From Geodermatophilus chilensis (GTDB lineage: Bacteria > Actinomycetota > Actinomycetes > Mycobacteriales > Geodermatophilaceae), in NCBI RefSeq assembly GCF_002802985.1, contig NZ_NVPT01000003.1, positions 1 to 64,000 on the forward strand: DNA of 64,000 nucleotides, given 5' to 3'. The notes beneath the pieces are model-generated. The model did not search any database and was not told the DNA's origin. It saw only the letters and a program-made list of their open reading frames with translations. This document shows, in pieces, positions 9,698 through 26,396 of the stretch. Each line of letters starts with the position of its first letter. Within the stretch, counting starts at the first letter, position 1. Position numbers and translations under genes: made by a program.

Positions 9698-9816
9698 GGC
9701 GATCTCCGTGGCTGGAGGGACATGGCCCGATCGGGACCCGGGGTGACCCGGCCCCCCAACCGGCCGTCCCCACCGGGTGTGCGAGGAAGTCAACGCCGGC
9801 CCGTGTGCTCTGGACA

Positions 9817-9832
9817 TGGGGGAGATCCCCCA
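9817..9832. promoter_or_regulatory. Palindromic operator, copy 1 of 3
   Basis: On the plus strand TGGGGGAGATCCCCCA, a palindrome with 7-base arms around GA. Read on the other strand it fits TGGGGG-N5-CCCCA, the same spacing as copies at 12083-12098 and 25439-25454. It lies 120 bases before the hydrolase start (minus strand) and 37 bases before the LVIVD start (plus strand), so it could serve both divergent genes. Binding by the GAF-LuxR protein is inferred. Confidence 0.65.
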
Positions 9833-9868
9833 GCGTGCGGACCGCGCCCCGTGGGCAGGATCGCCGCC

Positions 9869-11136
9869 GTGCGAGGAGCGTCGCCGGGCAGCGGCAGCAG
9901 GAGCGTCCCGGACTTCGCCCACGCCATCGGCTTCCTCGGCCACAGCGACCAGGGCGGCCGAGGAGACGGCGTGCAGGTCATGGTCCACGCCGGCCACGCC
10001 TACGTCGGCCACATGTTCTCCAGCGGCGTCACGGTCCTCGACGTCCGGAAGCCGCGAGATCCCTCCGCCGTCGGCTACCTCGCGGCCGCGCCCGGGACGG
10101 GAACCTCCACCTGCAGGTCGCCGACGGGCTGTTGCTCGTGGTCGACGCCGTCGACCTGTTCGCGGCGGCGGCCTTCGCTGACGAGTCGGCCTACTACGGC
10201 CGGTCTGTCGGCGAGGTGCTGGCCGAGCACCCTGCGGCCGAGTACTCCGCGGGCCTGCGGGTCTACGACCTCAGCGACTCCGCGGCTCCTCGCCGGATCG
10301 GCTCGCTGTCGGTCGAGGGCTTCGGTCTGCACCGGATCTGGTACGTCGGCGGCCGCTGGGCCTACGCCTCAGCGCTCCTGCACGGGTTCACCGACTACGT
10401 CCTCGTCACCATCGACATGGCCGACCCGGTCCGGCCGCGCGTGGCCGGGACGTCCTGGCTGCCCGGCATGCACCTGGCCGGCGGGGAACGCCCGGCGTGG
10501 CCGGCGGACCACCGCTACGGGCTGCACCACGCGATCGTCGCCGGGGATCTGGCCTACGGCTGCTGGCGGGACGGTGGCCTCACGGTGCACGACGTCTCCG
10601 ACCCCACCCGCCCCGAGCTCCTGGTGCACCGCAACTGGTGCCCTCCCTTCGGCGGCGGCACGCACACGGCGCTCCCGCTGCCGGGACGGGACCTGCTGGT
10701 CGTGGCCGATGAGGGGATCGCCGACAACTGCGCCGACCAGGTGAAGTACACCTGGGTCTTCGACGTCCGGGTGCCCGCCAACCCGATCAGCATCGCCACC
10801 CTGCCGACCCCGTCCGAGGTGGACTACTGCGCCAAGGGCGGGCACTTCGGGCCGCACAACCTCCACGAGAACCGGCCGGGCAGCTTCGTCAGCGAGCGGC
10901 TCGTGTTCGCCACGTACCAGAACGCCGGGGTCCGCGTCTTCGACCTCGTCGATCCCTTCGCGCCGCGCGAGGTCGCCGCGTTCGTGCCGCCTCCGCCGAC
11001 GCGGCTGTTCGACACCCGGCCGGGCCGCCCCCGCGTCATCCAGAGCTGCGACGTCTTCGTCGACCCGGACGGGGTCATGTACGTCACCGACTACAACGCG
11101 GGCCTGTACGTGCTCGAGTACCAGGGGCCCTCGTGA
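9869..11136 (+). pseudogene. LVIVD-repeat protein, frameshifted
   Basis: A beta-propeller-like protein of the LVIVD-repeat family, with repeats such as YVGHMFSSGVTVLDV, LRVYDLSDSAAPRRIGSLS, LTVHDVSDPTRPELLVHR and VRVFDLVDPFAPREVAAF. The first part, from GTG 9869, is in one frame up to about LAAAPGT (10099). The rest continues in the frame one base back, from NLHLQVADGLLLV to the stop at 11136. Family members usually have a tryptophan between these parts, and a single missing base between 10099 and 10100 would restore it. This is either a true single-base deletion or a sequencing error. SDR follows 39 bases downstream. Biochemical function of this family is not established. Confidence 0.8.
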
Positions 11137-11175
11137 GCCGCGGCCGGTCGCGGTCCCCGCAGAGAGGTGCAGGCG

Positions 11176-11988
11176 ATGGCTGACGCGTCACTGGCCGGAC
11201 AGGTGGCCCTGGTGACGGGGGCGTCGACCGGCATCGGCCGGCAGCTCGCGCACGCCCTCGCCGATCGCGGCGCCGCGGTCGCCGGCCTGGCCCGGGGGGC
11301 GGAGCGGCTGACGGCGGCGGTGGACGAGATCGCCGGCGCAACGGGGCGCCCGGTCCTCGCGGTGGCCGCTGACGTCACCGACGCCGCGGCGGTCGACGCC
11401 GCCGTCGCCCGGGTGGTCGAGCAGCTCGGGCCGGTGGACCTGCTGGTCAACAACGCCGGCCTCGTGGACGCCGCGGAGGTCCCCGTCTGGGCCGCCGACC
11501 GGGAGCAGTGGTGGGCCGTCGTGGCGAGCCACATCCGGGGACCACAGCTGCTGATTGGAGCCGTGGTGCCGGCCATGGTCCGACGCGGCCGAGGCCGGGT
11601 CGTCAACCTGGCCAGCGGGATGGGCGCCCGGGCGGTTCCCGAGTACTCGGCCTACTCGGTCGGCAAGACGGGTCTCATCCGGCTGACCGAGGCGCTGGCC
11701 GCCTCGCTGCTGGGCACCGGCGTCCACGCCTTCAACGTCGCGCCCGGCCTCGTGCGCACCGAGATGACCGACTCCATGCCGAAGTGGGAGGGCCACACCG
11801 CCTGGACACCCCCGGAGCGGGTGGTCGAGCTGGTCTGTGCGATAGCCGCCGGGGAGCTGGACGACTGGTCGGGCCGCTTCCTGCGCGCGGGTGCGGACAC
11901 CCCCGACACGGTCGGGCGCGTGGTCCTCGAGGAAGGCGCGCGTCAGCTCCGCCTGCGCCCCCACGGTCCCGACGACCCCGTCGCCTGA
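11176..11988 (+). CDS. SDR-family oxidoreductase
   Basis: A 270-residue classical short-chain dehydrogenase/reductase. It shows the cofactor motif TGASTGIG, the NNAG motif (VNNAGLVD), catalytic serine in VNLASGMG, and YSVGK with the Tyr/Lys pair (YSAYSVGKTG). The C-terminal 60 residues (SMPKWEGHTAWTPPERVVEL onward) form a family-specific cap. ATG 11176 has AGAGAGG 8 bases upstream; an in-frame GTG at 11167 is less likely. It probably shares a transcript with the LVIVD gene. A role as polyol, aldose or alcohol dehydrogenase in the island is possible but not shown. Confidence 0.88.
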   Translation: MADASLAGQVALVTGASTGIGRQLAHALADRGAAVAGLARGAERLTAAVDEIAGATGRPVLAVAADVTDAAAVDAAVARVVEQLGPVDLLVNNAGLVDAAEVPVWAADREQWWAVVASHIRGPQLLIGAVVPAMVRRGRGRVVNLASGMGARAVPEYSAYSVGKTGLIRLTEALAASLLGTGVHAFNVAPGLVRTEMTDSMPKWEGHTAWTPPERVVELVCAIAAGELDDWSGRFLRAGADTPDTVGRVVLEEGARQLRLRPHGPDDPVA

Positions 11989-12078
11989 GCGCGCGCCCCA
12001 CCCCGGGAGGCGATCCGCCGTCCGGCGCCGGACGGTGCCCCGGCCGCGCCGTGCGTCGCGGGCCTGCGCTTCCGCCGC

Positions 12079-12102
12079 CCTATGGGGGGTTCTCCCCATA
12101 GG
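12079..12102. promoter_or_regulatory. Palindromic operator, copy 2 of 3
   Basis: Perfect 9-base outer arms (CCTATGGGG and CCCCATAGG) flank a 6-base centre. The core at 12083-12098 is TGGGGGGTTCTCCCCA, differing from copy 3 by one base. It lies about 125 bases upstream of the VOC gene that begins the ABC-transporter operon, inside the 237-base space after the SDR gene. Confidence 0.7.
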
Positions 12103-12225
12103 CCCGCGATCGGTCCGAAATTACCGTCCTGCCAGCGAGTGACAGGGGTCACAGCCGACTTCCGGGCGGCGCGACCCCGACTCGGTCCACGCAGCTCACC
12201 GCGTATCGGAAGCGGAGGTCGGACG

Positions 12226-12816
12226 ATGCCAGTGCCGGGCATGTGCGGGATGGAGCACATCGGCTTCACCGTGCCGGACATCAACGAGGCATGTGACTTC
12301 TTCGAGCGCATCCTCGGCGCCGAGACGCTCTACACGGCCGCGACGGACTTCCGTCACGACGACGACGACTGGATGCAGGAGCACCTGCGGGTCCACCCGC
12401 GGGCGGTCATCAAGGAGTTCCGCTACCTGCGGCTGGGCAACGGCACGAACCTCGAGGTCTTCGAGTACGAGGCGCCCGACCAGAACCGGACCCCGCCGAA
12501 GAACAGCGACATCGGCGGGCACCACCTGGCCTTCTACGTGGAGGACATCGACGCCGCCATCGCCTTCCTGAGGGAGAACGGCGTCGAGGTCCTCGGCGAG
12601 CCGACCGCCTACACCGAGGGACCCAACCTCGGCCTCACCTGGTGCTACTTCATGGCTCCCTGGGGTCAGCAGCTCGAGGTCGTCTCCGCGCCCCAGGGGA
12701 CCGTCTACGACAACGAGGCCAAGAAGACCGGCAAGACGCGGCTGTTCCACCCCAAGTACGCGGCCGAGACCCTGCTCGGCAGCAGCGCCCCCGCGTCCCC
12801 TGCTCCGGCGCCCTGA
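12226..12816 (+). CDS. VOC (glyoxalase/bleomycin-resistance fold) protein
   Basis: A 196-residue vicinal-oxygen-chelate protein with two beta-alpha-beta-beta-beta modules. The first starts MEHIGFTVPDINEACDFFERILGAE. The second starts HHLAFYVEDIDAAIAFLRENGVEVLGEP. Putative metal ligands are His in MEHIGF, Glu in LEVFEYE, His in GGHHLAF and Glu in QQLEVVS. Such proteins are isomerases, lyases or dioxygenases acting on 2-oxoacid or diketone-like compounds. GGAGG precedes ATG 12226 by 8 bases. The gene is first in the operon after operator copy 2. A weak hairpin (12858-12875) separates it from the binding-protein gene. Confidence 0.88.
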   Translation: MPVPGMCGMEHIGFTVPDINEACDFFERILGAETLYTAATDFRHDDDDWMQEHLRVHPRAVIKEFRYLRLGNGTNLEVFEYEAPDQNRTPPKNSDIGGHHLAFYVEDIDAAIAFLRENGVEVLGEPTAYTEGPNLGLTWCYFMAPWGQQLEVVSAPQGTVYDNEAKKTGKTRLFHPKYAAETLLGSSAPASPAPAP

Positions 12817-12919
12817 ATCCGCCCCTCCGGCCGCCCGCGCTGGCGGCACCCCTCCTCGGCCACGCCGCCGTGGCCGCCTGGCCCGCTCCGCACCCCCATT
12901 GTCCGAGAAGGAGACAACG

Positions 12920-14458
12920 ATGTCTGAGCTGCAGCTGCCCCCCTCCCGGGGGCTGTCGCGCCGCCGGTTCCTGGGTGGCCTGGCCGGCTCCGCCCTGCTG
13001 CTCGCCGGCTGCGGCGGCGGCGAGGGCAGCAGCCGGGCCAACCGGACCTTCGCCAACGAGGCGGAGAAGTGGCGGCAGTACGACGGGTTCAAGCTGACCT
13101 TCGTCACGGAGAACACGCCGCCGTCCACGGGGATCAAGCAGCTCGTCGACCGTGGTGACTTCAAGAACCTGACCGGCATCGACGTCGAGATCCTGCAGCA
13201 GGACCTGCCGGTCATGTTGCAGAAGGCCGAGCTGGACCTCCGGTCGGGCGGAACCACCTACGACCTCATCTACGCCCAGGACAAGCCGGTCACCTCGGTG
13301 CTCGCGGATTACCTGGAGGACCTGAGGCCCTACATGGAGGACGACTCGCTTCCCCAGGCCGACGGGGGCTACGACGAGGGCACGTGGTACCCCAACTACC
13401 TCGACGTGGCCAGCTACGCGTACAGCGACCGGTTGATCAGCCTCCCGTACGACGCCGCGGACGCCGTCTTCTGCTACCGGCGCGACCTCTTTGAGCAGTA
13501 CGCGGGCCAGTTCCAGTCCGAGTTCGGCTATCCCATGCAGTACGGCCCGGACACGACCTGGAAGAACGTCCTGGACTTCGCCACGTTCTTCAACCGGCTG
13601 AACGCCTCCGACCCGACCGTCCCCTACGGGATGGGCCTGCACCTGGGGCAGTTCGCCTGGACCACCCAGCTCGACGTTCAGCGGATGCTGTACTCGCACG
13701 GGCAGTGGCGGGAGTTCGACATCGACGACGTCCAGGGGTCCAAGGACCCCGGGGCGACCCGCTGGGGCGACGACCAGTCGATCCGTGGCCTGGAGCTGTA
13801 CAAGGCGCTGTTCGACCAGTCGACGCCGGACGCCCTGTCCCTCGGGACGGTCGAGGTGGCGGACGCGTACAACGCCGGCAAGATCGCGATGCTGACGCAG
13901 TACCACGAGTTCGCCGCGTCGTTCGAGGACCCGGCCAACGCCGGTGGCGGCGGGCGGACGGCCTACGACGTCTGCCCCAAGGGCGACCGCCAGTACCTCG
14001 CGGGCAACGGCGAACTGGTCAACGGCACCAACTGCGGCATCGGGGGCATCTCGATCAACGCGGCGGCGTCCGAGGACCAGAAGCGCGCCGCGTACATGTT
14101 CGCCGTGTGGGCGACCAACGTGGAGAACCAGGCGGAAAACCTCAAGATCTCGGGCGGGACGCCGACCCGCCTGGCGGTGGGGGACCGCCCGGAGGTCGAG
14201 CAGGCGCAGGGGCAGCCGTACGGCACGGGGGACACCGGTCGCGTCGGGCCCTCCCAGTACCCGAACGCCCTCACGTTCCCCGCGGTCACGGTGGGCATGG
14301 CCGACCCCAACGCGGTCCTCGGCCCGAAGATCCCGAAGTTCAACCAGTACGTGACCATCGTGGCCAACGAGATCCAGGCGATGTGCGCGGGGAACTCCGA
14401 CCCCGAGGCCACCGCGAAGGTGATCCAGTCCCGGACCGACGAGCTGCACGGGGCGTGA
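12920..14458 (+). CDS. Carbohydrate ABC transporter substrate-binding lipoprotein
   Basis: A 512-residue family 1 extracellular solute-binding protein. The N-terminus has a twin-arginine-type signal (SRRRFLGGLAG) followed by a lipobox (LLLAGC), so it is probably exported folded and anchored as a lipoprotein. Mature sequence features typical of sugar-binding proteins include LPYDAADAVFCYRRDLFEQY and GKIAMLTQYHEF. AAGGAG lies 7 bases before ATG 12920. It is followed by two permeases and an ATPase. At over 500 residues it is longer than most maltose-type binding proteins. The ligand cannot be deduced. Confidence 0.92.
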   Translation: MSELQLPPSRGLSRRRFLGGLAGSALLLAGCGGGEGSSRANRTFANEAEKWRQYDGFKLTFVTENTPPSTGIKQLVDRGDFKNLTGIDVEILQQDLPVMLQKAELDLRSGGTTYDLIYAQDKPVTSVLADYLEDLRPYMEDDSLPQADGGYDEGTWYPNYLDVASYAYSDRLISLPYDAADAVFCYRRDLFEQYAGQFQSEFGYPMQYGPDTTWKNVLDFATFFNRLNASDPTVPYGMGLHLGQFAWTTQLDVQRMLYSHGQWREFDIDDVQGSKDPGATRWGDDQSIRGLELYKALFDQSTPDALSLGTVEVADAYNAGKIAMLTQYHEFAASFEDPANAGGGGRTAYDVCPKGDRQYLAGNGELVNGTNCGIGGISINAAASEDQKRAAYMFAVWATNVENQAENLKISGGTPTRLAVGDRPEVEQAQGQPYGTGDTGRVGPSQYPNALTFPAVTVGMADPNAVLGPKIPKFNQYVTIVANEIQAMCAGNSDPEATAKVIQSRTDELHGA

Positions 14459-14521
14459 TCGGCGTGCCCCGGCCGGGCCCCCTGGCCGGCGACGCCCAGG
14501 CGAACGCAGGAGAGAACCAGC

Positions 14522-15472
14522 ATGGCCGTTGACACAGCAACACCCGGGGCGGTGCTCGGCACGCCCAGGCCCAACACACCGCGTGCCCGCAGGTACCTCG
14601 CGCCGCTCCTGCTGCCGGCGGTCATCCTCCTGGCGCTGCTGAGCATCTACCCGTTCGTCTGGCTCATCTACATGTCGTTCCACGCGGTGGGCCTGGCGCC
14701 CGGCGCACCGAGCGAATTCGTCGGGCTGGACAACTGGCAGCGGATGTTCACCGACTCCCAGTACTGGGCCAGCTGGGGAGTGCTCGCCAGGTACTCCGTG
14801 GTGAGCATGGTGCTGGAGGTCGGCCTGGGGACCCTCCTCGCCATCCTCCTGAACCGCTCCAAGCACGAGAAGCTGCTGATCACCGTCCTGCTGATGCCGA
14901 TGATGATGGCGCCGGTCGTCGCCGGCCTGCTCTGGCAGTACCTCTACAACGGCACCTTCGGCTGGTACTTCTGGGGGCTGCGCAGTGTCGGGCTGCTGGA
15001 CGAGGGGACGATCCTCGGCAGCGCGGACACCGCTCTCTGGGCGATCGTCGCGGTGGACGTGTGGGAGTGGACCCCGCTGGTCGCGCTCATCGTCCTGTCG
15101 GGCCTCAAGCTGGTGCCCCAGGACCAGCTCGAGGCCAGCTGGATGGACGGCGCCGGGCCGGTGCGGAGCTTCTTCCAGGTCGCCCTGCCCAGCATCAAGG
15201 GATCGCTCATGATCGCGATCCTGCTGCGATTCATGGACAACATCCGCATCATCGACCACTTCATCGCCCTCACGGGCGGTGGCCCGGCCAACAGCACGAA
15301 GGTCCTCCCGCTCTACCTCTACGAGCAGTCGTTCTCGTTCTTCGAGCTCGGCTACGGGGCCTCGATCGCGCTCACGCTCCTGCTCGTGACGATCTTGTTC
15401 GGGAAGCTCGTGGTCAACCGGTTCGAGGAGCGGGAGCCCCGACCGTCGAAGAAGGACGAGGAGCTGGTCTGA
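14522..15472 (+). CDS. Sugar ABC transporter permease (MalF/UgpA type)
   Basis: A 316-residue inner-membrane permease with six predicted helices. The cytoplasmic EAA loop is visible as LEASWMDGAGPVRSFFQVALP (around residues 200-220), which docks to the ATPase. The gene follows the binding-protein gene by about 60 bases and overlaps the next permease by the single base A of TGATG. It forms the heterodimeric channel with the 15472-16449 product. Confidence 0.93.
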   Translation: MAVDTATPGAVLGTPRPNTPRARRYLAPLLLPAVILLALLSIYPFVWLIYMSFHAVGLAPGAPSEFVGLDNWQRMFTDSQYWASWGVLARYSVVSMVLEVGLGTLLAILLNRSKHEKLLITVLLMPMMMAPVVAGLLWQYLYNGTFGWYFWGLRSVGLLDEGTILGSADTALWAIVAVDVWEWTPLVALIVLSGLKLVPQDQLEASWMDGAGPVRSFFQVALPSIKGSLMIAILLRFMDNIRIIDHFIALTGGGPANSTKVLPLYLYEQSFSFFELGYGASIALTLLLVTILFGKLVVNRFEEREPRPSKKDEELV

Positions 15473-16449
15473 TGACGACGAACCCGCGCACGGGTACCCG
15501 GGACGACGTGACGCAGGTCCAGGACGACCGGGCCGACGTCCGGGGCGACGACCTCCTCCCGGGACCCGCGGTCGACGCCAGGGACCAGGTGGTCCGGGGT
15601 CGTGGCAGCCGGATCGCCGGGGTCGTCATCACGGCGTTCCTCGGTCTGTACGTGATCTGGACCCTGGTGCCCTTCTACATCATGATCACGTCCTCGTTCA
15701 AAGCCTCGGACGCGGCCTTCGCCCTGCCCCCGGAAGGCGACTGGGGCGGGGCCGTCTCCCAGCTGTTCGTCTTCAGCCCCACCACGGAGCACTACCGCGG
15801 CCTGTTCGCCCAGGGGGAGTTCGAGCGGTACTTCACCAACAGCGTGGTGGCCGCGGTCGCCTCGGCGGTGATCTCGGTGGTGTTCGGGACGACCGCCGCC
15901 TACGCCATCTCCCGTGGCCGGTTCCGGGGCAAGCGCGATCTGTACTTCTGGATCATCTCCACGCGCATGGCGCCGGTCGTCGCCGTCACGGTGCCGCTCT
16001 ACGCGATCTTCAAGAACTTCGCCCTGCTGAACACCCTGCCGGCGCTGATCCTCGCCTACACGGTGTTCAACCTGCCGTTCGCCATCTGGATCCTGAAGGG
16101 CTTCTTCGACTCGGTGTCCTACGAGATCGAGGAGGCCTACATGGTGGACGGGCACTCCCGGTGGCAGGCCCTGTGGAAGATCATCCCGCTGGTCGCCCCC
16201 GGGCTGGCCGCGGTCGTCGTCCTCTGCATCCTGCTGGCCTGGAACGACTTCATCTTCGCCGCCGTCATGGGCGGCGAGGCGGCCAAGACACTCCCGGTCG
16301 CGACCCAGGGGCTGAAGTCGGCCAGCGGCATCGAGTGGGGCCAGATCATGGCTGCCGGCGTGGTCACGGTCGCGCCGATGCTGCTGCTCGGCATCGTGAT
16401 CCGGAAGTACATGGTCCAGGGCCTGACCATGGGCGCGGTCAAGCAGTGA
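15472..16449 (+). CDS. Sugar ABC transporter permease (MalG/UgpE type)
   Basis: A 325-residue permease with a long charged N-terminal extension of about 45 residues before the first helix (VVITAFLGLYVIWTLVPFYIM). The EAA loop is YEIEEAYMVDGHSRWQALWK. ATG overlaps the stop of the preceding permease (TGATG), indicating translational coupling. The binding-protein, two-permease, ATPase order is standard for CUT1 carbohydrate importers. Confidence 0.93.
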   Translation: MTTNPRTGTRDDVTQVQDDRADVRGDDLLPGPAVDARDQVVRGRGSRIAGVVITAFLGLYVIWTLVPFYIMITSSFKASDAAFALPPEGDWGGAVSQLFVFSPTTEHYRGLFAQGEFERYFTNSVVAAVASAVISVVFGTTAAYAISRGRFRGKRDLYFWIISTRMAPVVAVTVPLYAIFKNFALLNTLPALILAYTVFNLPFAIWILKGFFDSVSYEIEEAYMVDGHSRWQALWKIIPLVAPGLAAVVVLCILLAWNDFIFAAVMGGEAAKTLPVATQGLKSASGIEWGQIMAAGVVTVAPMLLLGIVIRKYMVQGLTMGAVKQ

Positions 16450-16552
16450 GACGGGCCGCTGACCTCATGACACGGCACCTCGTGGCACGACTCTCGTCGT
16501 CCCCACGTCCCAGCACCCCACCCGCCTCCGGGCGTCCGGTCGAGGAGTTCTC

Positions 16553-17656
16553 ATGGCATCGCTGACGTTCAACGGAGTCTGGAAGCGCTACGACCAGGTC
16601 GAGGCGGTCAAGGACCTCAACCTCGCCGTCGCCGACGGGGAGTTCCTGTGCCTCCTGGGCCCGTCGGGATGCGGCAAGTCCTCGTCGCTGCGCATGATCG
16701 CCGGCCTGGAGTTCATCTCCGACGGCGACATCCTGCTCGACGACCGGCGCATCAACGACCTCGAGCCGAGGCACCGCGACATCGCCATGGTCTTCGAGTC
16801 CTACGCGCTGTACCCGACGAAGACCGTCTTCGAGAACATGGCCAACCCGTTGCGGCTGCGCAAGCTGTCGAAGGACGAGATCGACCGGCGGGTGCGCGAG
16901 ACGGCGCGGATCCTGGAGATCGAGCGACTCCTGAACCGGCGCCCGTCGCAGCTGTCGGGCGGCCAGAAGCAGCGCGTCGCCATCGGGCGGGTCCTGGTGC
17001 GCGAGCCCCAGGCCTTCCTGTTCGACGAACCGATCGCGCACCTGGACGCCAAGCTGCGGGCCCGGATGCGCGGCGAGCTCAAGCACATCCAGAAGACCCT
17101 CGGCACCACGACGGTCTACGTCACCCACGACCAGCTCGAGGGCATGTCGATGGCCGACCGCATGGCGATCATGCGGGAGGGGGTGCTGCAGCAGGTCGGC
17201 ACTCCCCACGAGGTCTTCAACCGTCCGACCAACGTGTGGGTGGCCACCTTCGTCGGGGACCCGCCCATGAACATCCTCAACGCCGAGGTGCAGGCCGCCG
17301 ACGGCGGCCTCGTCGCCCGCGCGCCGGAGTACACCATCACGATCCCGGCCCAGCAGGCGGCGGCGCTGTCCAGTGCCCGGTTGACCGACAACAAGGTCCA
17401 GATCGGGGTCCGCCCGGAGGCGCTGACCCTGTCCTCGGTCCGGGATCCCCAGCACCCCATCGCCGGACGCATCTACGCGGTCCAGCCACTGGGTGACGTG
17501 GAAATCGTGGACGTCCGGGTGGGTGACGACCGGATCCTGGTCCGCACCGAGCTCGGGACGATCTCCAACGAGGACATGAACGCCCCGGTGTTCCTAGGCT
17601 ACAAGCCGGAAAAGCTCTACTTCTTCGATGCCGTTTCCGGCCAGGCCGTGTACTGA
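16553..17656 (+). CDS. ugpC: Sugar ABC transporter ATPase (UgpC/MsmK type)
   Basis: A 367-residue ABC ATPase with Walker A GPSGCGKSSS (about residue 37), signature LSGGQKQRV, Walker B FLFDEPIAHLDAKL and switch histidine VYVTHDQ. A C-terminal TOBE-type regulatory domain follows. The Q-loop residue that is normally glutamine (VFQSYALYP) is glutamate here (VFESYALYP), and the D-loop is also atypical (IAHLD rather than LSNLD). GAGGAG precedes the ATG. It energises import through the two permeases encoded just upstream. Confidence 0.92.
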   Translation: MASLTFNGVWKRYDQVEAVKDLNLAVADGEFLCLLGPSGCGKSSSLRMIAGLEFISDGDILLDDRRINDLEPRHRDIAMVFESYALYPTKTVFENMANPLRLRKLSKDEIDRRVRETARILEIERLLNRRPSQLSGGQKQRVAIGRVLVREPQAFLFDEPIAHLDAKLRARMRGELKHIQKTLGTTTVYVTHDQLEGMSMADRMAIMREGVLQQVGTPHEVFNRPTNVWVATFVGDPPMNILNAEVQAADGGLVARAPEYTITIPAQQAAALSSARLTDNKVQIGVRPEALTLSSVRDPQHPIAGRIYAVQPLGDVEIVDVRVGDDRILVRTELGTISNEDMNAPVFLGYKPEKLYFFDAVSGQAVY

Positions 17657-17825
17657 CCCAGGCCCTCGGGGCCCGTCCTTGGCCGACGCATGGGACTGGA
17701 CCAGGGCTCGGGTCACGGACCTCTTCGCAGCGGTCGGCGCCCACTCCCTCGCGGGCCGGTCGACGCCTTCCATACCAGAACTCACCCGGCGCCATGGAGC
17801 GCCCGTCAGAGGATCAGGAAGTCGA

Positions 17826-20003
17826 ATGCCCAAGGTCATCCCCCTCGCACCGGCGGCCGAGTGGGTCGAGCTGTCGTCGACCGACGAGGACTGGGACGAA
17901 TTCCCAGGCGACCGGCTCAAGACGATGCTCGTGCAGCTCTACCTCATCCGAGCCTTCGAGGAAGAGGTGCTCGACCTCGCCAGCCAGGGACTCATCCACG
18001 GTCCCGCCCACTCGAGCATCGGGCAGGAGGGTGGCGCGGTCGGGTCCTGCCTGTCGCTGCGGTCGGACGACCAGGTCACCGGCTCGCACCGCGGGCACCA
18101 CCAGTTCCTCGCCAAGACCCTCGGCCACGTGGCGCCGGACGGACTGGACCCCGCCGCGGACTTCTCGCCCGCCGTCCGCGAGGTCCTGGAACGGTCCCTC
18201 GCCGAGATCTGCGGCCTGGCGTCGGGCTACTGCCGAGGCCGGGGCGGCTCCATGCACCTCCAGTGGGAGGAGGCCGGGGCGATGGGGACGAACGCCATCG
18301 TCGGCGGCCACGTCCCGCAGGCGGCCGGGTTCGCGTGGTCGGACAAGCACGCCGGCACGGACGCCGTGTCGGTCACGTACTTCGGCGACGGGGCCATCAA
18401 CATCGGCTCGGCCTTGGAAATCTTCAACCTGGCCGGCGCCTGGAAGGTCCCGGTCTGCTTCTTCATCGAAAACAACCACTACGCCGTCTCCACGACGCCC
18501 GAGGAGGCGACGGGGGAACCGCGGCTCTCGGCGCGAGGGCTCGGCTTCGCCATCCCCAGCTGGCGGGTGGACGGGATGGACCCGCTGGCCGTCCACCTCG
18601 CCATGGAGGAAGCCGTGGCGCACATGCGCGCCGGAGGCGGGCCGACCCTCATCGAGGCCGACGTCTACCGCTACTTCCACCAGAACGGGCCTTTCCCGGG
18701 GAGCGCCTTCGGCTACCGCACCAAGGACGAGGAGCGCGGCTACCGGGAGCGGGACCCGCTCATCCGGGTGGCCGCCACCCTGGTCCGCCGAGGCCTGCTC
18801 AGCGAGGACGACGTCGCCGGGCTCTGGTCGAAGTCGAAGCAGGTGATGAAGGACATCTCCGGCTCCTTCCTGGAGCCGGACCCGGACGGCAAGCCGGGCT
18901 CCAACCGCTACAAGCGCGACCTGCTGCCCGACCCCGCGTTCGCGGACGTCGGGGTGCGCGGTGACCTCTCCGAGCTGTCCGGTCTCCGGTACATGGAAGC
19001 CACCGAATACCAGGGCGCCACGAAGGAGCGGAAGTTCATCGACGTGATCGCCGACGTCATGCACCGGCGGATGGAGACCGACGAGCGGATCGTCGTGATG
19101 GGCGAGGACGTCCACAAGCTCAAGGGCGGCCCGCGCGGCGCCACCCGCGGGCTCAAGGCGGCCTTCCCCGACCGGGTCCTCGGCACGCCCATCGCCGAGA
19201 ACGCCTTCGTGGGCCTGGCCGGGGGCATCGCGCTCGACGGGCGGTACCGCCCGGTGGCCGAGCTCATGTACGCCGACTTCATCTGGGTCGCGGCCGACCA
19301 GCTGTTCAACCAGGTCGCCAAGATGCGGCACATGTTCGGTGGCGACAGCCCCGTCCCCTACGTGCTGCGGATGAAGATCGGGACGGGGACCGGCTACGGT
19401 TCGCAGCACTCGATGGACCCGGCGGGCATCATGGCCACCGCTCCGGGGTTCCGGATCATCGCGCCGTCGAACCCGTACGACTACATCGGGCTGATCAACA
19501 CCGCACTGGCGTGCGACGACCCGGTGGCGGTCCTCGAGCACGACGCGGACCTGTACTCCTCGATGGGCACCGTCCCGGAGGAGGACCTGGACTACTGCCT
19601 GCCCGTGGGCCGGTCCGCGCTGCGGAGGGAGGGGGAGCAGGTCACGGTCATCTCGTACCTCTCGATGGTCCCGCGGTGCCTGGACGCTGTGGAACAGGCG
19701 GGCGTCGACGCCGACGTCATCGACCTGCGCTGGCTCGACCGGGGGAGCCTCGACTGGCCGGCTATCGAGGCCAGCATCCAGAAGACGAACAACGTCCTCG
19801 TCGTCGAGCAGGGGGCGATCGGCACGTCCTACGGGACCTGGATCGCCGACGAGATCCAGCGACGCTACTTCGACTGGCTGGACCAGCCGGTGCAGCGGGT
19901 GCACGGCGGCGAGGCCTCGCCGAGCGTCAGCAAGGTCCTGGAGCGCGCGGCGCTCGGCCAGACGGAGGACATCGTGGCCGCGCTGACCGCCATGACCAAG
20001 TGA
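17826..20003 (+). CDS. Fused alpha-beta E1 component of a 2-oxoacid/acetoin-type dehydrogenase
   Basis: A 725-residue thiamine-diphosphate enzyme in which the alpha and beta subunits are fused. The alpha part (about 30-345) carries SHRGHHQFLAK, YCRGRGGSMH and the ThDP signature GDGAINIG with IENNHYAVS. The beta part begins near residue 398 (KFIDVIADVMHRRMETDERI) and includes GEDVHKLKGG, TPIAEN and the transketolase C-terminal domain. AGGAAG precedes ATG 17826. It should decarboxylate a 2-oxoacid, or cleave an acetoin-like diketone, and pass the acyl group to the E2 encoded 49 bases downstream. No E3 gene is in the window, so dihydrolipoamide dehydrogenase would come from elsewhere. Confidence 0.9.
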   Translation: MPKVIPLAPAAEWVELSSTDEDWDEFPGDRLKTMLVQLYLIRAFEEEVLDLASQGLIHGPAHSSIGQEGGAVGSCLSLRSDDQVTGSHRGHHQFLAKTLGHVAPDGLDPAADFSPAVREVLERSLAEICGLASGYCRGRGGSMHLQWEEAGAMGTNAIVGGHVPQAAGFAWSDKHAGTDAVSVTYFGDGAINIGSALEIFNLAGAWKVPVCFFIENNHYAVSTTPEEATGEPRLSARGLGFAIPSWRVDGMDPLAVHLAMEEAVAHMRAGGGPTLIEADVYRYFHQNGPFPGSAFGYRTKDEERGYRERDPLIRVAATLVRRGLLSEDDVAGLWSKSKQVMKDISGSFLEPDPDGKPGSNRYKRDLLPDPAFADVGVRGDLSELSGLRYMEATEYQGATKERKFIDVIADVMHRRMETDERIVVMGEDVHKLKGGPRGATRGLKAAFPDRVLGTPIAENAFVGLAGGIALDGRYRPVAELMYADFIWVAADQLFNQVAKMRHMFGGDSPVPYVLRMKIGTGTGYGSQHSMDPAGIMATAPGFRIIAPSNPYDYIGLINTALACDDPVAVLEHDADLYSSMGTVPEEDLDYCLPVGRSALRREGEQVTVISYLSMVPRCLDAVEQAGVDADVIDLRWLDRGSLDWPAIEASIQKTNNVLVVEQGAIGTSYGTWIADEIQRRYFDWLDQPVQRVHGGEASPSVSKVLERAALGQTEDIVAALTAMTK

Positions 20004-20052
20004 GCGGGACCGCCGTCCCGAACCCCAGCCGACTGCCGGAGGGCTAGGTCAC

Positions 20053-21399
20053 GTGGCAACCGTTCTCAGAATGCCGGGCGTCTCCGCCGACGCGACGGAG
20101 GCCGCGCTCCTCGACTGGGCGGTCGAGCCCGGTGCGACGGTCAAGCGCGGCGACGTCATCGCCAGCGTCGAGACCGACAAGGCCGTGGTGGAACTGGAGG
20201 CCGAGGAGGACGCCGTTCTTTTCAAGACCCTGGCCTCCGCCGGGGAGATGGTGCCCATCGGCGGGCCCATCGCCGTCTTCGTCCAGCCCGGTGAGGAGGT
20301 GCAGGACGAGCAGGCGATCCTCGGGAACGTCGGGCTGGGGCCGCAGATCTCCGGTCCGCTCGAGGGCGCGGACGAGGAGCGGTCCCAGGACGCCCTGGTG
20401 CCGGGAGCCAAGGAAGCGCTCATCGAGCACACCGCGGATGCGGTGGTGAGCGGCAACGGGGACGGGCACGGGCGCGTCTTCGCCAGCCCCCTCGCCCGCC
20501 GGCTGGCAACGCAAGCCGACCTGCGGCTCGAGGACCTCGAGGGCACCGGGCCCGGCGGCCGGATCCGGCGCCGTGATGTCGAGGCGGCCCTGAGCAAGCG
20601 AGGGGCCGCCGCGACAGCTCCTCCCCTCGAGGTGGTGGGGACTCCGGCCTCGGGGGATGGGGCCGCCGAGCAGACGCCTGCTCCGGCAGGTGCACCGGCG
20701 GCGGCCGTGGCAGGCGCCGCGTACACCGAGATCCCGCACTCCCGGTTCCGCCGGGCCGTGGCCGCGGCACTCACGGCCAGCAAGCAGCAGGTGCCGCACT
20801 TCTACCTCACGGCGGCCTGCCGGGTGGACGCGCTGCTGGACCTGCGCCGGCGGGTCAACGACGAGGGCGGCGTCAAGATCACCATCAACGACTTCTTCGT
20901 CAAGGCGGCCGCCCGGGCCATGGTCGCGGTCCCCGACATGAACGTCGTGTGGACCCCCGACGCCGTCCGGCGCTTCGAGTCGGTCGACATCGCCGTGGCG
21001 GTGGCCAGCGAGCGGGGTCTGGTCACCCCCGTCGTCCGGTCGGCGCAGAGCCGGTCGCTGTCCGATATCTCGGCCACGGTCAAGGACCTCGCCGCCCGCG
21101 CCGCCGCCGGCACGCTCAAGCAACAGGAGCTCGAGGGGGGATCGCTGGCGATCTCCAACCTCGGCATGTACGGCGTCGAGGAGTTCGCCGCGATCATCAA
21201 CCCGCCGCAGGTCGGGATCCTCGCCGTCGGCGCCGTCACCTCCCGCCCGATCCAGCTCGACGACGGGGGAGTGGGGTTCGGCCAGTTCATCACGGTGGTG
21301 CTCTCCGCTGACCACCGGCCCGTCGACGGCGCTCTGGCCGCCCAGTGGCTCGCGCGGTTCCGCGAGCTCGTGGAGAACCCGATCCGGCTGCTCGTCTGA
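20053..21399 (+). CDS. E2 dihydrolipoamide acyltransferase
   Basis: A 448-residue E2 subunit. It has an N-terminal lipoyl domain with the lipoylated lysine in ETDKAVVELE (about residue 41) and a peripheral-subunit-binding domain (SPLARRLATQADLRLEDLEG, about 143-181). The C-terminal catalytic acetyltransferase domain has the active-site motif SADHRPVDG (about 419). A proline/alanine-rich linker separates the domains. GTG 20053 is used. It works with the fused E1 upstream; together they would yield an acyl-CoA. The lipoyl domain starts with MPGVSADATEAALLDWAV, shaped like acetoin and branched-chain E2 proteins. Confidence 0.93.
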   Translation: MATVLRMPGVSADATEAALLDWAVEPGATVKRGDVIASVETDKAVVELEAEEDAVLFKTLASAGEMVPIGGPIAVFVQPGEEVQDEQAILGNVGLGPQISGPLEGADEERSQDALVPGAKEALIEHTADAVVSGNGDGHGRVFASPLARRLATQADLRLEDLEGTGPGGRIRRRDVEAALSKRGAAATAPPLEVVGTPASGDGAAEQTPAPAGAPAAAVAGAAYTEIPHSRFRRAVAAALTASKQQVPHFYLTAACRVDALLDLRRRVNDEGGVKITINDFFVKAAARAMVAVPDMNVVWTPDAVRRFESVDIAVAVASERGLVTPVVRSAQSRSLSDISATVKDLAARAAAGTLKQQELEGGSLAISNLGMYGVEEFAAIINPPQVGILAVGAVTSRPIQLDDGGVGFGQFITVVLSADHRPVDGALAAQWLARFRELVENPIRLLV

Positions 21400-21456
21400 C
21401 GCGGTGACAGCCACCACAGCAACAGCCCAGTCCCGGCAACCCTGGAAGGCAGCGCG

Positions 21457-23172
21457 ATGACATTCCTCGTGAACGACCCCAGCGACTTCCCGAGGGAACT
21501 CGCCGACGGGTTCCTCGCCGCCAACAAGCGCTACGTCCGGAAGGTCTTCGGTGGAGCGGTCCGGGCCACCGAGAGCAGGCCGGGCAAGGTCGCCATGATC
21601 GTCGGCGGGGGCACCGGCCACCACCCGGCCTTCGGCGGGTGGGTCGGTCAGGGCATGGCCGACGGCGTCGTGTTCGGCAACATCTTCTCCTCGCCCTCGG
21701 CCGCCCAGGCGGTCAGCGTCGGCCGGGCCGCCCACCACGGCGGCGGGGTCCTCATCGCCTTCGGCAACTACGCCGGCGACGTCCTGCACTTCGGGGAGGC
21801 GACGGAGCTGCTGAAGGCCGAGGGGATCGACGCGCGCATCGCGGTGGTCACCGACGACATCGCCTCCGCGCCGCCCGAGGAGGCGCACAAGCGCCGTGGC
21901 ATCTGCGGGTGGGTGACCGTGTTCAAGGTGACCGGAGCCGCCTGCGAGGAGGGCCGCTCGCTCGACGAGGTCATCGCGGTCTTCGACCACGTGAACCACC
22001 GCACGCGCACGCTGGGGGTGGCCTTCTCCGGCTGTACGCTCCCCGGCGCGGACGGGCCGCTGTTCACCGTGGCGCCCGGCAAGATGGGGGTCGGCCTCGG
22101 CGTCCACGGCGAGCCGGGCATCTACGACGCCGACCTCAAGAGCGCTGACCAGGTCGCGCAGGTCCTGGTCGAGGGGCTGCTCAAGGACAAGCCGGAGAAC
22201 GTGGGCAACCGGGTCATCGCGCTGCTCAACGGACTCGGCTCGACGACCTACGAGGAACTGTTCGTCACCTATGGCGCCGTCGAGAGGCTGCTGCGCCAGG
22301 CCGGCGTCGAGGTGGTCGACTGCGAGGTCGGTGAGCTGACCACCTCGCTGGACATGGGCGGTGTCTCCCTGACGCTCACGTGGACCGACGACGAGATCGA
22401 GCGGCTCTGGAACGCGCCGGTCGACACCCCCGCGATCCGCCGCGGCACGATGGAGGCTCCGCGCTTCATCGACGACTCGCAGCTCTCCACCGAGGCCCCC
22501 CGGATCACGGTCACCGAGCCGGGCAGCCCCGAGTCCCAGGACGCGGCGCGGCACATCGCCGCCGGGCTGGAGGCCGTGCTGGTCACCCTGCGGGAGCATC
22601 AGCAGGAGCTCGGCGAGCTCGATGCCTTCGCCGGCGACGGCGACCACGGGGTCGGCATGGTCCGGGGAGCGGAGAACGGGCTGGCTGCGGCGCGTGAACT
22701 CGCCGAGCAGGGGGCCGGCGCCCGGACCGTGCTGGCGGGGGCCGGCGAGGAGTGGTCCGCGCAGGCCGGGGGCACGTCCGGGGCACTGTGGGGAGCCATG
22801 CTCGCGGCCGCCGGCCAGGCGCTCGGGGACGACCAGCCCGTGGACGCCGCAGCGCAGGTGCGCGCCGCCCGTGCGGCGCTGGACGCCCTGCGGCGGATCG
22901 GCAAGGCCGAACCCGGTGACAAGACGATGCTCGACGCCCTCATCCCCTGCGTGGAGGCCCTCGAGGCCGAGGTACAGGGCGGCGCGTCGATCGCCGAGGC
23001 CTGGCGGAGGGCCGCGGACGCCGCGGAGTCGGCCGCGCAGGCGACGGCCCCCATGCGGCCGCGGATCGGCCGGGCCCGGCCGCTGGCCGAGCGCAGCATC
23101 GGTCATGCCGACGCCGGCGCGACGTCCCTCGCCCACATCGTGCGGACGATCGCCGACCAGGTGCGCGGTTGA
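21457..23172 (+). CDS. DAK-family ketose kinase (dihydroxyacetone/erythrulose kinase-like)
   Basis: A 571-residue single-chain kinase joining a DhaK domain and a DhaL ATP-binding domain. DhaK features are GGGTGHHPAFGG (about residue 50) and FGNIFSSPSA. The histidine of GVGLGVHGEPG (about 217) is the likely covalent substrate ligand. DhaL features are GDGDHGVGM (about 392), GGTSGALWG and PGDKTMLDAL. The GHHP/FGNIFSSPS and GNYAGDVLHFG wording looks closer to the mycobacterial erythrulose kinases (DerK/LerK) than to DhaK of glycerol metabolism. A three- to five-carbon ketose is a reasonable substrate guess. ATG 21457 follows GGAAGG. The next gene overlaps or closely follows. Confidence 0.9.
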   Translation: MTFLVNDPSDFPRELADGFLAANKRYVRKVFGGAVRATESRPGKVAMIVGGGTGHHPAFGGWVGQGMADGVVFGNIFSSPSAAQAVSVGRAAHHGGGVLIAFGNYAGDVLHFGEATELLKAEGIDARIAVVTDDIASAPPEEAHKRRGICGWVTVFKVTGAACEEGRSLDEVIAVFDHVNHRTRTLGVAFSGCTLPGADGPLFTVAPGKMGVGLGVHGEPGIYDADLKSADQVAQVLVEGLLKDKPENVGNRVIALLNGLGSTTYEELFVTYGAVERLLRQAGVEVVDCEVGELTTSLDMGGVSLTLTWTDDEIERLWNAPVDTPAIRRGTMEAPRFIDDSQLSTEAPRITVTEPGSPESQDAARHIAAGLEAVLVTLREHQQELGELDAFAGDGDHGVGMVRGAENGLAAARELAEQGAGARTVLAGAGEEWSAQAGGTSGALWGAMLAAAGQALGDDQPVDAAAQVRAARAALDALRRIGKAEPGDKTMLDALIPCVEALEAEVQGGASIAEAWRRAADAAESAAQATAPMRPRIGRARPLAERSIGHADAGATSLAHIVRTIADQVRG

Positions 23173-24257
23173 TCCGTCCACCGGCAGACGCGGCCGGGGA
23201 CGGCCCGGCCGTCCTCGGCCGCAGCCGCGGCCCGCGGGGGCCGGTCCGGCCCCTGGTCGAGGGGAGCCCGCGGCCGCTGGTGGAGTGCCACGACGGCGTC
23301 CTGTTGGATCTCGACGGTGTCCTCTACGTCGGGCCGCACGCGGTCGCCGGCGCGCCGGAGGCCGTGGCCGCCGCCCGGGCGGCCGGGCTGCGCGTGGCGT
23401 TCGTGACCAACAACGCCTCCCGCACGCCGGAGACCGTGGCCGCCCACCTGACCGCACTGGGCATCGCCGCGGCACCCGGAGACGTCGTCACCTCGGCGCA
23501 GGCGGCGGCCACCCTGGTCGCCGAGGCCGTGGCACCGGGCGCGGCCGTCCTCGTCGTCGGCGGGGAGGGGCTGGACGCGGCGCTGGTGGAGCGCGGGCTG
23601 CGCCCCGTGCGGCAGGCCTCGGACCACCCCGCAGCGGTGGTGCAGGGCTTCTCCCCGGACGTCGGCTGGCGGCTGCTCGCCGAGGGCACCTACGCCGTCC
23701 GTGCCGGCGTGCCGTGGATCGCCAGCAACCTGGACGTCACCGTGCCCACCGCCCGGGGACTGGCTCCGGGCAACGGTGCGCTGGTGGAGGTCATCGCGCA
23801 GGCGACGGGGCGCCGGCCGGTCGCTGCGGGCAAGCCACAGACGCCGCTGCACCTCGAGGCCGTGCGCCGCACGGGCAGCCGCGAGCCGCTGGTCGTCGGC
23901 GACCGGCTCGACACCGACATCGAGGGGGCGAACCGGGCCGGTGTCGCCAGCCTGCTGGTGCTCACGGGCGTGACGACGCCCGTCGACCTGGTCCTGGCCC
24001 AACCGGTGCACCGTCCCTCGTACGTCTGTGCGGACCTGTGGGACGGCCTCATGCGGGGACACCCCCCGGTGCACCGCCACGAGGCCGGCGGGTGGAGCTG
24101 CGGCGGCTGGATCTGCACCACGACCGGGACGGGGATCGCCCTGGTCGGGGCGGGAGCGGGCCTCGACGGCCTGCGCGCGGTCTGCGCGGCCTGGTGGCAC
24201 GACGGCGGAGGGGACCCGGAGACGGTCCGGGAGGTCGTGGCGGGGCTGGGGCTGTGA
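23169..24257 (+). CDS. HAD-IIA family phosphatase
   Basis: A HAD-superfamily subclass IIA hydrolase with motif I VLLDLDGVLYVG, motif II VTNNAS, motif III lysine in AAGKPQ, and motif IV VVGDRLDTDIEGA. This group includes NagD, p-nitrophenyl phosphatases and the actinobacterial glycerol-3-phosphate phosphatase. A short C-terminal domain ends LRAVCAAWWHDGGG. The frame opens at a TTG overlapping the kinase stop (TTGA). A GTG at 23280, behind GAGGGGAG and close to the conserved domain, may be the true start, giving 325 residues. Placement after the ketose kinase suggests sugar-phosphate dephosphorylation or clean-up. Confidence 0.85.
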   Translation: MIRPPADAAGDGPAVLGRSRGPRGPVRPLVEGSPRPLVECHDGVLLDLDGVLYVGPHAVAGAPEAVAAARAAGLRVAFVTNNASRTPETVAAHLTALGIAAAPGDVVTSAQAAATLVAEAVAPGAAVLVVGGEGLDAALVERGLRPVRQASDHPAAVVQGFSPDVGWRLLAEGTYAVRAGVPWIASNLDVTVPTARGLAPGNGALVEVIAQATGRRPVAAGKPQTPLHLEAVRRTGSREPLVVGDRLDTDIEGANRAGVASLLVLTGVTTPVDLVLAQPVHRPSYVCADLWDGLMRGHPPVHRHEAGGWSCGGWICTTTGTGIALVGAGAGLDGLRAVCAAWWHDGGGDPETVREVVAGLGL

Positions 24258-24331
24258 CGAGGACGTGGCCATCGGGGTCGGCGGGACGGGACCGGGGATG
24301 TTCCGAGCCGGTGACGAGGACATTGCCAGCG
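24254..24331. repeat. Imperfect direct repeat upstream of luxR
   Basis: GTGACGAGGACGTGGCCATC at 24254-24273 recurs as GTGACGAGGACATTGCCAGC at 24311-24330, 17 of 20 bases identical, offset 57. The first copy overlaps the stop of the HAD gene. Both lie within 105 bases upstream of the luxR start, so they could be regulator sites, or simply a small duplication. Confidence 0.45.
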
Positions 24332-24357
24332 AGTGTCCGAGTTCCTACGGTGTCCCC

Positions 24358-25434
24358 ATGCCTGAGACCGCGGGCATGGTGCGGCGGGGGGACCTGTCCA
24401 GCGCCCTCTCCGCGTACGCGCGTGACCTGTACGAGGACGCCCGGCTGGTCCCCCTCCTGCGCAGGCTCATGACGGCCAGTTGCACCCTGACCGGATCGGT
24501 CGGCAGCAGCATCTCGATCGTCGACCCCGCTGCGGGGCGCTACACCAAGGTCGCCGAGCGCGGTACGGCCTGCCGTCTGGGTCAGAGCTTCCCCCTGGAC
24601 GAGGGCGTCACCGGGCGGGTCATGGCCAGCCAGCGGCCGATCGTGCTGGCGAGCTACCGCGACGTCGCGATCGGGCACCTGCTGCCGGGCAGCCGGGCCC
24701 GCGACGGCGCGGTCGCGGCCATCCCGATCTGGTGGCGGGGTGACGTGATCGGGGCCAACGTGGTCTTCGCAGGCACCCCCCGGTCCTTCACCACCGACGA
24801 GGTCGACCAGCTCGAGGTGGTGACCCAGGTGGTCGCGCCCGGCATCGTCACGGCCGCCGGGCGGGACCTGGCGATGAGCCACCTGTTCCGGCGGGCCGAG
24901 GACCCGCCGGCGCTCCGGACGCAGGGCGCGGGCGCCGTGGACCCGACGTGTGCCTCGGTCGCCGAGGTCGCCCTCGGCCTGGCCTCCCTCGTGGCGCGGG
25001 CCTCGCTGCCGGGACAGGAGCCCGCGGACCCGGTGCAGGTGCGCATCGTCCGCGACGAGGCCGCCCTCCGTCTCGAGGTGCAGGACACCGGCGACCGGGC
25101 GGTCGGCTGGCAGGAGCTGGTCGACGGCGCGGACGGGGCCGTCGAGCTCGTCCTGGCGGAGGGGCGCAGCACGGCGTCGCTGCTGCCGACCGGCCCGGAT
25201 CGTCCCGGCGCCACGCCCTCCCCGTTCACCGCGCGGGAGCAGCAGGTCGCCGTACTGCTGAGCCGGGGGATGAGCGATCGGGCGATCGCCGACGCGCTCC
25301 TCATCTCGCCGAAGACGGCCGAGAAGCACGTCGGGGCGGTGCTGCGCAAGACCGGCACGTCCTGCCGCACGGCCGCCGTCGTCCGGGCGCTGGAGCGGGG
25401 ATGGCTCGTCGAGGGGCCGGCCACCCGGGGATGA
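24358..25434 (+). CDS. GAF-LuxR transcriptional regulator
   Basis: A 358-residue regulator. An N-terminal GAF-like sensor (about 45-170: SSISIVDPAAGRYTKVAERG, FPLDEGVTGRVM, AAIPIWWRGDVIGANVVFAG) could bind a small ligand. A middle region follows, then a C-terminal LuxR/GerE helix-turn-helix (about 288-340: FTAREQQVAVLLSRGMSD, SPKTAEKHVGAVLRKTG). There is no receiver domain, so control is probably by ligand rather than phosphorylation. ATG 24358 begins the conserved part. It sits between the kinase/HAD genes and the aldolase, and a TGGGGG-N5-CCCCA site starts 4 bases after its stop. It is the best candidate activator of the island. Confidence 0.9.
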   Translation: MPETAGMVRRGDLSSALSAYARDLYEDARLVPLLRRLMTASCTLTGSVGSSISIVDPAAGRYTKVAERGTACRLGQSFPLDEGVTGRVMASQRPIVLASYRDVAIGHLLPGSRARDGAVAAIPIWWRGDVIGANVVFAGTPRSFTTDEVDQLEVVTQVVAPGIVTAAGRDLAMSHLFRRAEDPPALRTQGAGAVDPTCASVAEVALGLASLVARASLPGQEPADPVQVRIVRDEAALRLEVQDTGDRAVGWQELVDGADGAVELVLAEGRSTASLLPTGPDRPGATPSPFTAREQQVAVLLSRGMSDRAIADALLISPKTAEKHVGAVLRKTGTSCRTAAVVRALERGWLVEGPATRG

Positions 25435-25438
25435 GTCC

Positions 25439-25454
25439 TGGGGGGATCTCCCCA
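25439..25454. promoter_or_regulatory. Palindromic operator, copy 3 of 3
   Basis: TGGGGGGATCTCCCCA, matching copy 2 in 15 of 16 positions and copy 1 (reverse strand) in the fixed TGGGGG and CCCCA halves. It begins 4 bases after the luxR stop and lies about 85 bases upstream of the aldolase GTG, a sensible activator position. Confidence 0.7.
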
Positions 25455-25538
25455 TGGGACGCGCGGCCCTCGAGGGGTTGACTGACGGGGGACCCCGGTG
25501 CCGGACGCCGGGCGTCGTCGACCCCGAGGAGGACCCCT

Positions 25539-26396
25539 GTGCCCGTGGTGTCGCTGAAGGAGACGCTCGACCGAGCCTTCGCCGAGCGGTATGGCGTGCC
25601 GGCGATCAACATCGTCGACGACCTGAGCATCCAGGCCGTGCTCGCCGCCGCCGTCGAGGAACGCTCCCCGGTGATCATCCAGACGTCGGTGAAGACGGTG
25701 AAGATGTACGGCCGCGACCAGCTCTACGGCATCTTCACCGCGCTGGCCCGCGACGTCGACGTCCCGGTCTCGCTACACCTGGACCACTGTCCCGACCGCA
25801 GCGTGATCAGCTCCTGCCTGGGAGGTGGGTGGAACTCGGTCCTGTTCGACGCGCACGAGCTCGACGTCGCCGAGAACCTGCGGCAGACCACGGAGGTGGT
25901 CCAGGAAGCGCGGCGGTACGGGGCGAACGTCGAGGGCGAGATCGAGGGGATCCAGGGCGTCGAGGACGACATCGGTTCGGACGAGGCCTCGGTACAGCAG
26001 TCCCTCGAGGTGGCAGTCGACTTCATCAAGCGCACTGGCGTCGACTGCTTCGCGCCCGCGATCGGCAACGCGCACGGCCAGTACACGTCGGCCCCGGTGC
26101 TCGACCACCAGCGGGTCACCGACCTCGTCGAGGCCACCGGTGTCCCCATGGCACTGCACGGCGGTACCGGTCTGTCGAAGGAGCAGTTCCAGGACCTCAT
26201 CGCCCGGGGATGCGCCAAGGTCAACATCTCCACGGCGCTGAAGGAGGCGTACATGAAGTCCGCCCTCGAGTTCCTGCGCGGCGCCGAGGAGAAGGGCAAG
26301 TGGGACCCGCCGTCGCTGTTCAGGCACCAGACTGCAGCGGTCACGCAGATGGCCCGTGAGCACATGCGCCTGTTCGGCAGCTCCGGGAGGGCCTGA
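25539..26396 (+). CDS. Class II fructose/tagatose-bisphosphate-type aldolase
   Basis: A 285-residue zinc-dependent class II ketose-bisphosphate aldolase. Motifs are SLHLDHCPD (catalytic Asp and zinc His), VEGEIEGIQG (zinc-binding region), AIGNAHGQY (zinc His), HGGTGLS (zinc His and phosphate binding) and KVNISTALKEA. The length and wording fit the KbaY/GatY/IolJ-like group rather than the longer FbaA. Reversible cleavage to dihydroxyacetone phosphate plus an aldehyde is expected. GAGGAGG precedes GTG 25539. It overlaps the HAD gene by one base (TGATG). Confidence 0.9.
   Translation: MPVVSLKETLDRAFAERYGVPAINIVDDLSIQAVLAAAVEERSPVIIQTSVKTVKMYGRDQLYGIFTALARDVDVPVSLHLDHCPDRSVISSCLGGGWNSVLFDAHELDVAENLRQTTEVVQEARRYGANVEGEIEGIQGVEDDIGSDEASVQQSLEVAVDFIKRTGVDCFAPAIGNAHGQYTSAPVLDHQRVTDLVEATGVPMALHGGTGLSKEQFQDLIARGCAKVNISTALKEAYMKSALEFLRGAEEKGKWDPPSLFRHQTAAVTQMAREHMRLFGSSGRA

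Follow-up and report, generated by a model that had tools for sequence, protein, structure and literature searches.

The 64-kb window, the whole stretch of DNA analysed here, carries a catabolic island in which one 16-bp palindrome stands in three places. The question raised by this locus is whether these copies form a single operator, and if so which protein reads it and with what effect on the neighbouring genes. An earlier note on this DNA had put forward a GAF-LuxR protein encoded inside the island as the simplest candidate binder, and that prediction gains support from co-occurrence, from adjacency and from the dyad form of the site.

The island and its palindrome

The core common to the compared loci consists of an aldolase, a HAD gene and a DhaL/DhaK-type kinase. 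The window island holds in addition a sugar-type ABC importer, a fused E1, an E2, a VOC protein and a second phosphatase (Table 1). This gene content suggests the catabolism of a ketose or related polyol, in which the aldolase would split a phosphorylated intermediate. The aldolase passes the ketose-bisphosphate aldolase model TIGR00167 only narrowly (217.8 bits for a cut-off of 215.6), and no equivalog model gave a match. A search of 25 other genomes of the genus gave no regulator orthologue, and the island seems to be accessory (8798-27199), probably acquired by horizontal transfer. A plasmid search returned weak matches only, mostly to the LuxR domain, with no sign of the island on known plasmids. 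Compared with its intact Blastococcus counterpart, an LVIVD-type gene (9851-11136) lacks one base near 10095, and its frame is shifted; it is either a pseudogene or an assembly error.

Table 1. Features of the island in the window, with predicted roles
Feature	Coordinates	Strand	Remarks
Alpha/beta hydrolase, predicted target	8798..9697	-	Pfam Abhydrolase_1 E 1.8e-11; Blastococcus island orthologue 85-89% identical
TTGACT, -35-like hexamer	9788..9793	-	23 nt after predicted operator copy 1
Predicted operator copy 1, TGGGGGATCTCCCCCA	9817..9832	-	promoter of alpha/beta hydrolase gene; aligned Blastococcus counterpart
Predicted operator copy 2, TGGGGGGTTCTCCCCA	12083..12098	+	promoter of VOC-ABC-E1-E2-DAK-HAD-luxR operon; identical 16-mer before Blastococcus VOC orthologue
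CRP-like inverted repeat, GTGACAGGGGTCAC	12139..12152	+	possible co-regulator site; only GTGA-N6-TCAC of the window
VOC (glyoxalase-fold) protein, first gene of long operon	12226..12816	+	Pfam
Sugar-type ABC importer	12899..17656	+	Pfam; 81-90% identical in Blastococcus
ABC solute-binding protein	12899-14458	+	
ABC permeases	14522-15472 and 15472-16449	+	
MalK-like ATPase	16553-17656	+	
2-oxoacid-dehydrogenase-type E1 (fused alpha/beta) and E2	17628..21399	+	E1 homology from about 17775; E2 at 20053-21399
Dihydroxyacetone-kinase family protein	21457-23172	+	
HAD-IIA phosphatase	23169-24257	+	
GAF-LuxR regulator, predicted operator binder	24358..25434	+	Pfam GAF_2 E 5.4e-10, GerE E 3.8e-10
Predicted operator copy 3, TGGGGGGATCTCCCCA	25439..25454	+	between luxR and aldolase; aldolase-side counterpart in every examined locus with this regulator type
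TTGACT, -35-like hexamer	25478..25483	+	23 nt after predicted operator copy 3
Class II (ketose-bisphosphate type) aldolase, core target	25539..26396	+	Pfam F_bP_aldolase E 6.8e-80
HAD-IA phosphatase, aldolase operon	26396..27199	+	neighbour kept in all compared loci

All three copies reported in the earlier note are present. Copies 2 and 3 do differ by a single base, and the perfect outer arms of copy 2 are 9 bp long (CCTATGGGG...CCCCATAGG). The notation given there, TGGGGG-N5-CCCCA, finds the right sites, but the symmetric consensus is better written TGGGG-N6-CCCCA, and across the relatives it is about TGGGKRRW/WYYMCCCA. The dyad is preserved under symmetric variation, as G5/C12 is replaced by T5/A12 in Actinotalea. 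The pattern TGGGGN6CCCCA occurs three times in the window and, as had been claimed, nowhere else in it; the mean in dinucleotide shuffles was 0.135, and one of 200 shuffles reached three or more.

In the 5.51-Mb genome the pattern is found in five places (the reversed control pattern in 13), and these are not scattered: three are the non-coding copies of the island, the only such copies in the genome, lying within 15.6 kb. The other two, on contigs 4 and 134, fall within open reading frames and were rejected as operators. One of them encodes ...RYWGWDPKE..., and the recurrence of its identical 16-mer in G062, G372, G400 and G556 is as expected of conserved coding sequence. With a weight matrix drawn from other genera, which left out both the window and Blastococcus, the window sites rank first, second and third at 17.5-21.2 bits, and the next match scores 8.4, which leaves a gap of about 9 bits. 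The three copies are regarded here as one predicted operator.

Promoter anatomy and conservation

Copy 1 and copy 3 each have TTGACT exactly 23 nt downstream, as read in the direction of the following gene, and these are the only two occurrences of the hexamer on either strand of the window. The composite pattern (site, 21 to 25 nt, TTKACT) is likewise found in two places in this genome, both in the island. Copy 2 has TACCGT and not TTGACT at this distance, and its Blastococcus counterpart has TACGGT. Forty base pairs downstream of copy 2 lies a CRP-like repeat, whose counterpart in the Blastococcus VOC promoter is GTGACTGAGGTCAC; it suggests an additional catabolite control of the long-operon promoter. 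Genus g6 shows a TGTGA-N6-CCAC-like sequence in the stretch from the palindrome to TTGACT.

The earlier note had placed every copy in a promoter region, which stands for the hydrolase, the VOC operon and the aldolase. It does not stand for the LVIVD side of copy 1 or for luxR as a direct target of copy 3. Because its hexamer lies 23 nt away on the reverse strand, copy 1 is assigned to the alpha/beta hydrolase gene. On the other side, about 19 bp separate it from the likely GTG start of the LVIVD gene (9851) and no such hexamer is present; as judged from the sequence, this is no activator position, and the LVIVD gene is an improbable target. Copy 3 begins 5 bp past the luxR stop codon and therefore serves the aldolase-HAD operon and not luxR directly. 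Taken as the -35 element, TTGACT would put the centre of the site near -66, where class I activators bind. The promoter assignment is incomplete in that TTGACT is followed by no recognisable -10 element, and a consensus promoter scan around luxR-aldolase gave no sigma-70 site.

Orthologues of the GAF-LuxR protein accompanied by the site are present in at least six actinobacterial genera, the window's included; a genome scan with the protein gave Blastococcus (75%), Actinotalea (45%) and Actinoplanes (44%). In Blastococcus the whole island is kept from the hydrolase to the HAD gene, its proteins being 75-91% identical, and the equivalent promoters have all three sites. The VOC site is identical, the luxR-aldolase site reads TGGGGGGTTTTCCCCA-23-TTGACT, and the hydrolase site CGGGGGAAGTCCCCCA is followed after 23 nt by TTCACT. 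Blastococcus also harbors a decayed duplicate of the luxR-site-aldolase segment (L074:3674-4060, contig C9 near 51811), where the genes are broken and the predicted operator and TTGACT are intact.

Farther away, the Actinotalea site TGGGTGATCTCACCCA stands 22 nt from TTGACT, and the Actinoplanes site TGGGGAACTTCCCCCA 24 nt before the TTCACT of the aldolase, with luxR in another arrangement 1.8 kb away. Actinotalea, G167 and all seven genus-g6 genomes that have the module carry the site in the gap from regulator to aldolase. The distance from the palindrome to the TTGACT-like hexamer, edge to edge, is 22-24 nt in all lineages. Among 399 genomes of the order, a profile search recovered the regulator in 11, the aldolase in 11 and both in 10. 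The site precedes the aldolase in all ten, a strong sharing that is partly due to descent, since the window island is close to that of Blastococcus and a single genus supplies seven of the ten genomes. In nine of these ten, the hexamer exactly 23 nt away is TTGACT or TTTACT; in G351 it is TCTACT.

Wherever luxR is retained in an orthologous locus, so is the site, with promoter and spacing unchanged. The copies also track the luxR orthologue, a check that the earlier note had proposed: in G017, from the window's own genus, an aldolase is present without the regulator, and the site is absent as well. This G017 aldolase (L106 / L089) directly adjoins a tRNA-gene-like sequence, which suggests insertion by a mobile element. 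G057, which has a hybrid-kinase regulator and a more distant aldolase (65%), has no such site. Among 115 genomes of the family, the composite pattern occurs in 12 places, ten at the module or the decayed duplicate and two at non-palindromic strays (G034 and G384), which were rejected as operators for that reason. A composite match in G556 (C4:3542599) lies beside membrane-protein-like frames with no tie to the module and was taken as chance.

Predicted mode of regulation

These data make it quite probable that the palindrome is a class-I type activator site through which GAF-LuxR controls its own long operon, the aldolase-HAD operon and the hydrolase. In such a scheme, the GAF domain would sense a substrate or intermediate of the island, and a dimer of the LuxR-type helix-turn-helix would bind the palindrome, with the site centre about 66 bp before the start of transcription as in class I activation. 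From copy 2 it would turn on the long operon for the VOC protein, ABC transporter, E1, E2, DAK and HAD, which ends with luxR, hence a predicted positive feedback; from copy 3 it would turn on the aldolase-HAD operon, and from copy 1 the divergent hydrolase gene. Since luxR lies 100 bp from the HAD gene, this gap may also hold a separate luxR promoter.

The same operator could instead serve repression, GAF-LuxR holding the three promoters off until its GAF domain binds a ligand. The identity of the operator draws on the same data in either case, and these are neutral as to the sign of regulation. We infer activation over repression from position alone: about 31 bp separate the site centre from the -35-like hexamer downstream, and the edge spacing of 22-24 nt is maintained in all lineages, a distance typical of activators and not of promoter-overlapping repressors. 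The -10 elements are moreover weak, as in activator-dependent promoters. Repression therefore appears unlikely.

Activation by GAF-LuxR would also be mistaken if the palindrome belonged to another transcription factor encoded elsewhere, with LuxR a mere neighbour. LuxR-type regulators are numerous in these genomes, and genes inherited together in an island can give a false impression of functional coupling. However, the rest of the genome has no non-coding site, the regulator-less aldolase locus of G017 lacks it, and the site follows the regulator across genera and despite the changed gene order in Actinoplanes, so that we consider this reading very improbable. Chance palindromes deserve hardly any credence: they are easily found in a GC-rich window (74% GC), and with two mismatches allowed the pattern even falls below expectation, but the exact cluster of three copies, the fixed hexamer spacing and the conservation between genera speak against chance, and the comparative data already contradict it.

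The regulator, its hybrid-kinase relatives and known systems

The C-terminal helix-turn-helix of GAF-LuxR matches GerE (PF00196) with 39.7 bits for a cut-off of 23.5, which makes it a LuxR/GerE type. Pfam gave matches to GAF_2 and GAF in the window protein, none to a PAS domain and none to the autoinducer-binding domain of quorum-sensing LuxR proteins. A receiver domain (PF00072) is absent from it and from the Actinotalea, Actinoplanes and G167 orthologues.

In G057, G556, G452 and G865, a GAF-HisKA_3-HATPase-receiver-LuxR hybrid precedes the aldolase. As these distant aldolase loci carry the full hybrid, GAF-LuxR looks like a stripped-down hybrid kinase. The linker that joins GAF to LuxR in the Actinotalea, Actinoplanes and G167 regulators aligns over its whole length with the HATPase of the hybrids (hhalign 98.8%, E 4.8e-17) and lacks the conserved EALTN and GLG-type motifs; in the genus g6 regulators it has been lost. 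In an AlphaFold model of the Actinotalea orthologue, the linker is of low confidence, about 50 pLDDT. The hybrid-kinase and GAF-LuxR groups are split with full support in the aldolase tree, consistent with one change of regulator type. As this tree is unrooted, we infer the direction of the change, a loss of kinase parts, from the HATPase remnant. There is perhaps an even chance that a hybrid histidine kinase-response regulator became a one-component, ligand-sensing activator made up of GAF, a decayed ATPase remnant and LuxR, which kept the same target gene while operator and promoter spacing were rebuilt. In the hybrid loci L104, L105, L078 and L107, the DNA from regulator to aldolase contains shared tandem repeats, TAGGGAAAYCCC and GGGGAGSTTCCCC, and these are likely to be the hybrids' own operators.

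The open-access literature yielded no description of this regulator or motif, so that the earlier note's "undescribed" holds for both; it does not hold for the kind of system, PAS-LuxR regulators with a related 16-bp palindrome being known. The regulator, its operator, the spacing rule and the three targets together make a complete, testable regulon for an undescribed catabolic island, and the motif is a means of locating targets in other actinobacteria. The aldolase promoters under hybrid-kinase and under stripped-down regulators offer a natural series from two-component to one-component control. If the reduction of the hybrid is true, the passage from a phosphorelay to a direct switch would be traceable at one promoter.

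With the NarL/DevR response regulators, for which GerE-domain structures have been solved, the window protein shares the superfamily of the DNA-binding domain; unlike them, it has no receiver domain and hence no such phosphorylation switch. The GAF-HisKA_3-HATPase-REC-LuxR hybrids resemble it in their aldolase neighbour and in related GAF and LuxR domains, whereas the window protein lacks HisKA_3, a receiver domain and intact ATPase motifs, and the hybrids have intergenic repeats of their own, of the TAGGGAAAYCCC and GGGGAGSTTCCCC type. The PAS-LuxR regulators PimM, AmphRIV, NysRIV and FscRI recognise a 16-bp palindrome, CTVGGGAWWTCCCBAG, in the -35 region (PMC9774167). Like GAF-LuxR, they are actinobacterial, pathway-specific proteins with a sensor domain and a C-terminal LuxR helix-turn-helix, and the sites have in common a 16-bp dyad whose core is of the GGGA/TCCC type; the G167 site TGGGGGATTTCCCCCA contains GGGATTTCCC. 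The present regulator nevertheless has GAF in place of PAS, its site has outer letters TGG...CCA instead of CTV...BAG and lies 23 nt upstream of the -35-like hexamer instead of in the -35 region, and its predicted targets are catabolic and not polyketide genes. Because it differs in the PAS domain, the outer motif and the position of the site, GAF-LuxR is not, on its sequence features, filed as a PAS-LuxR member.
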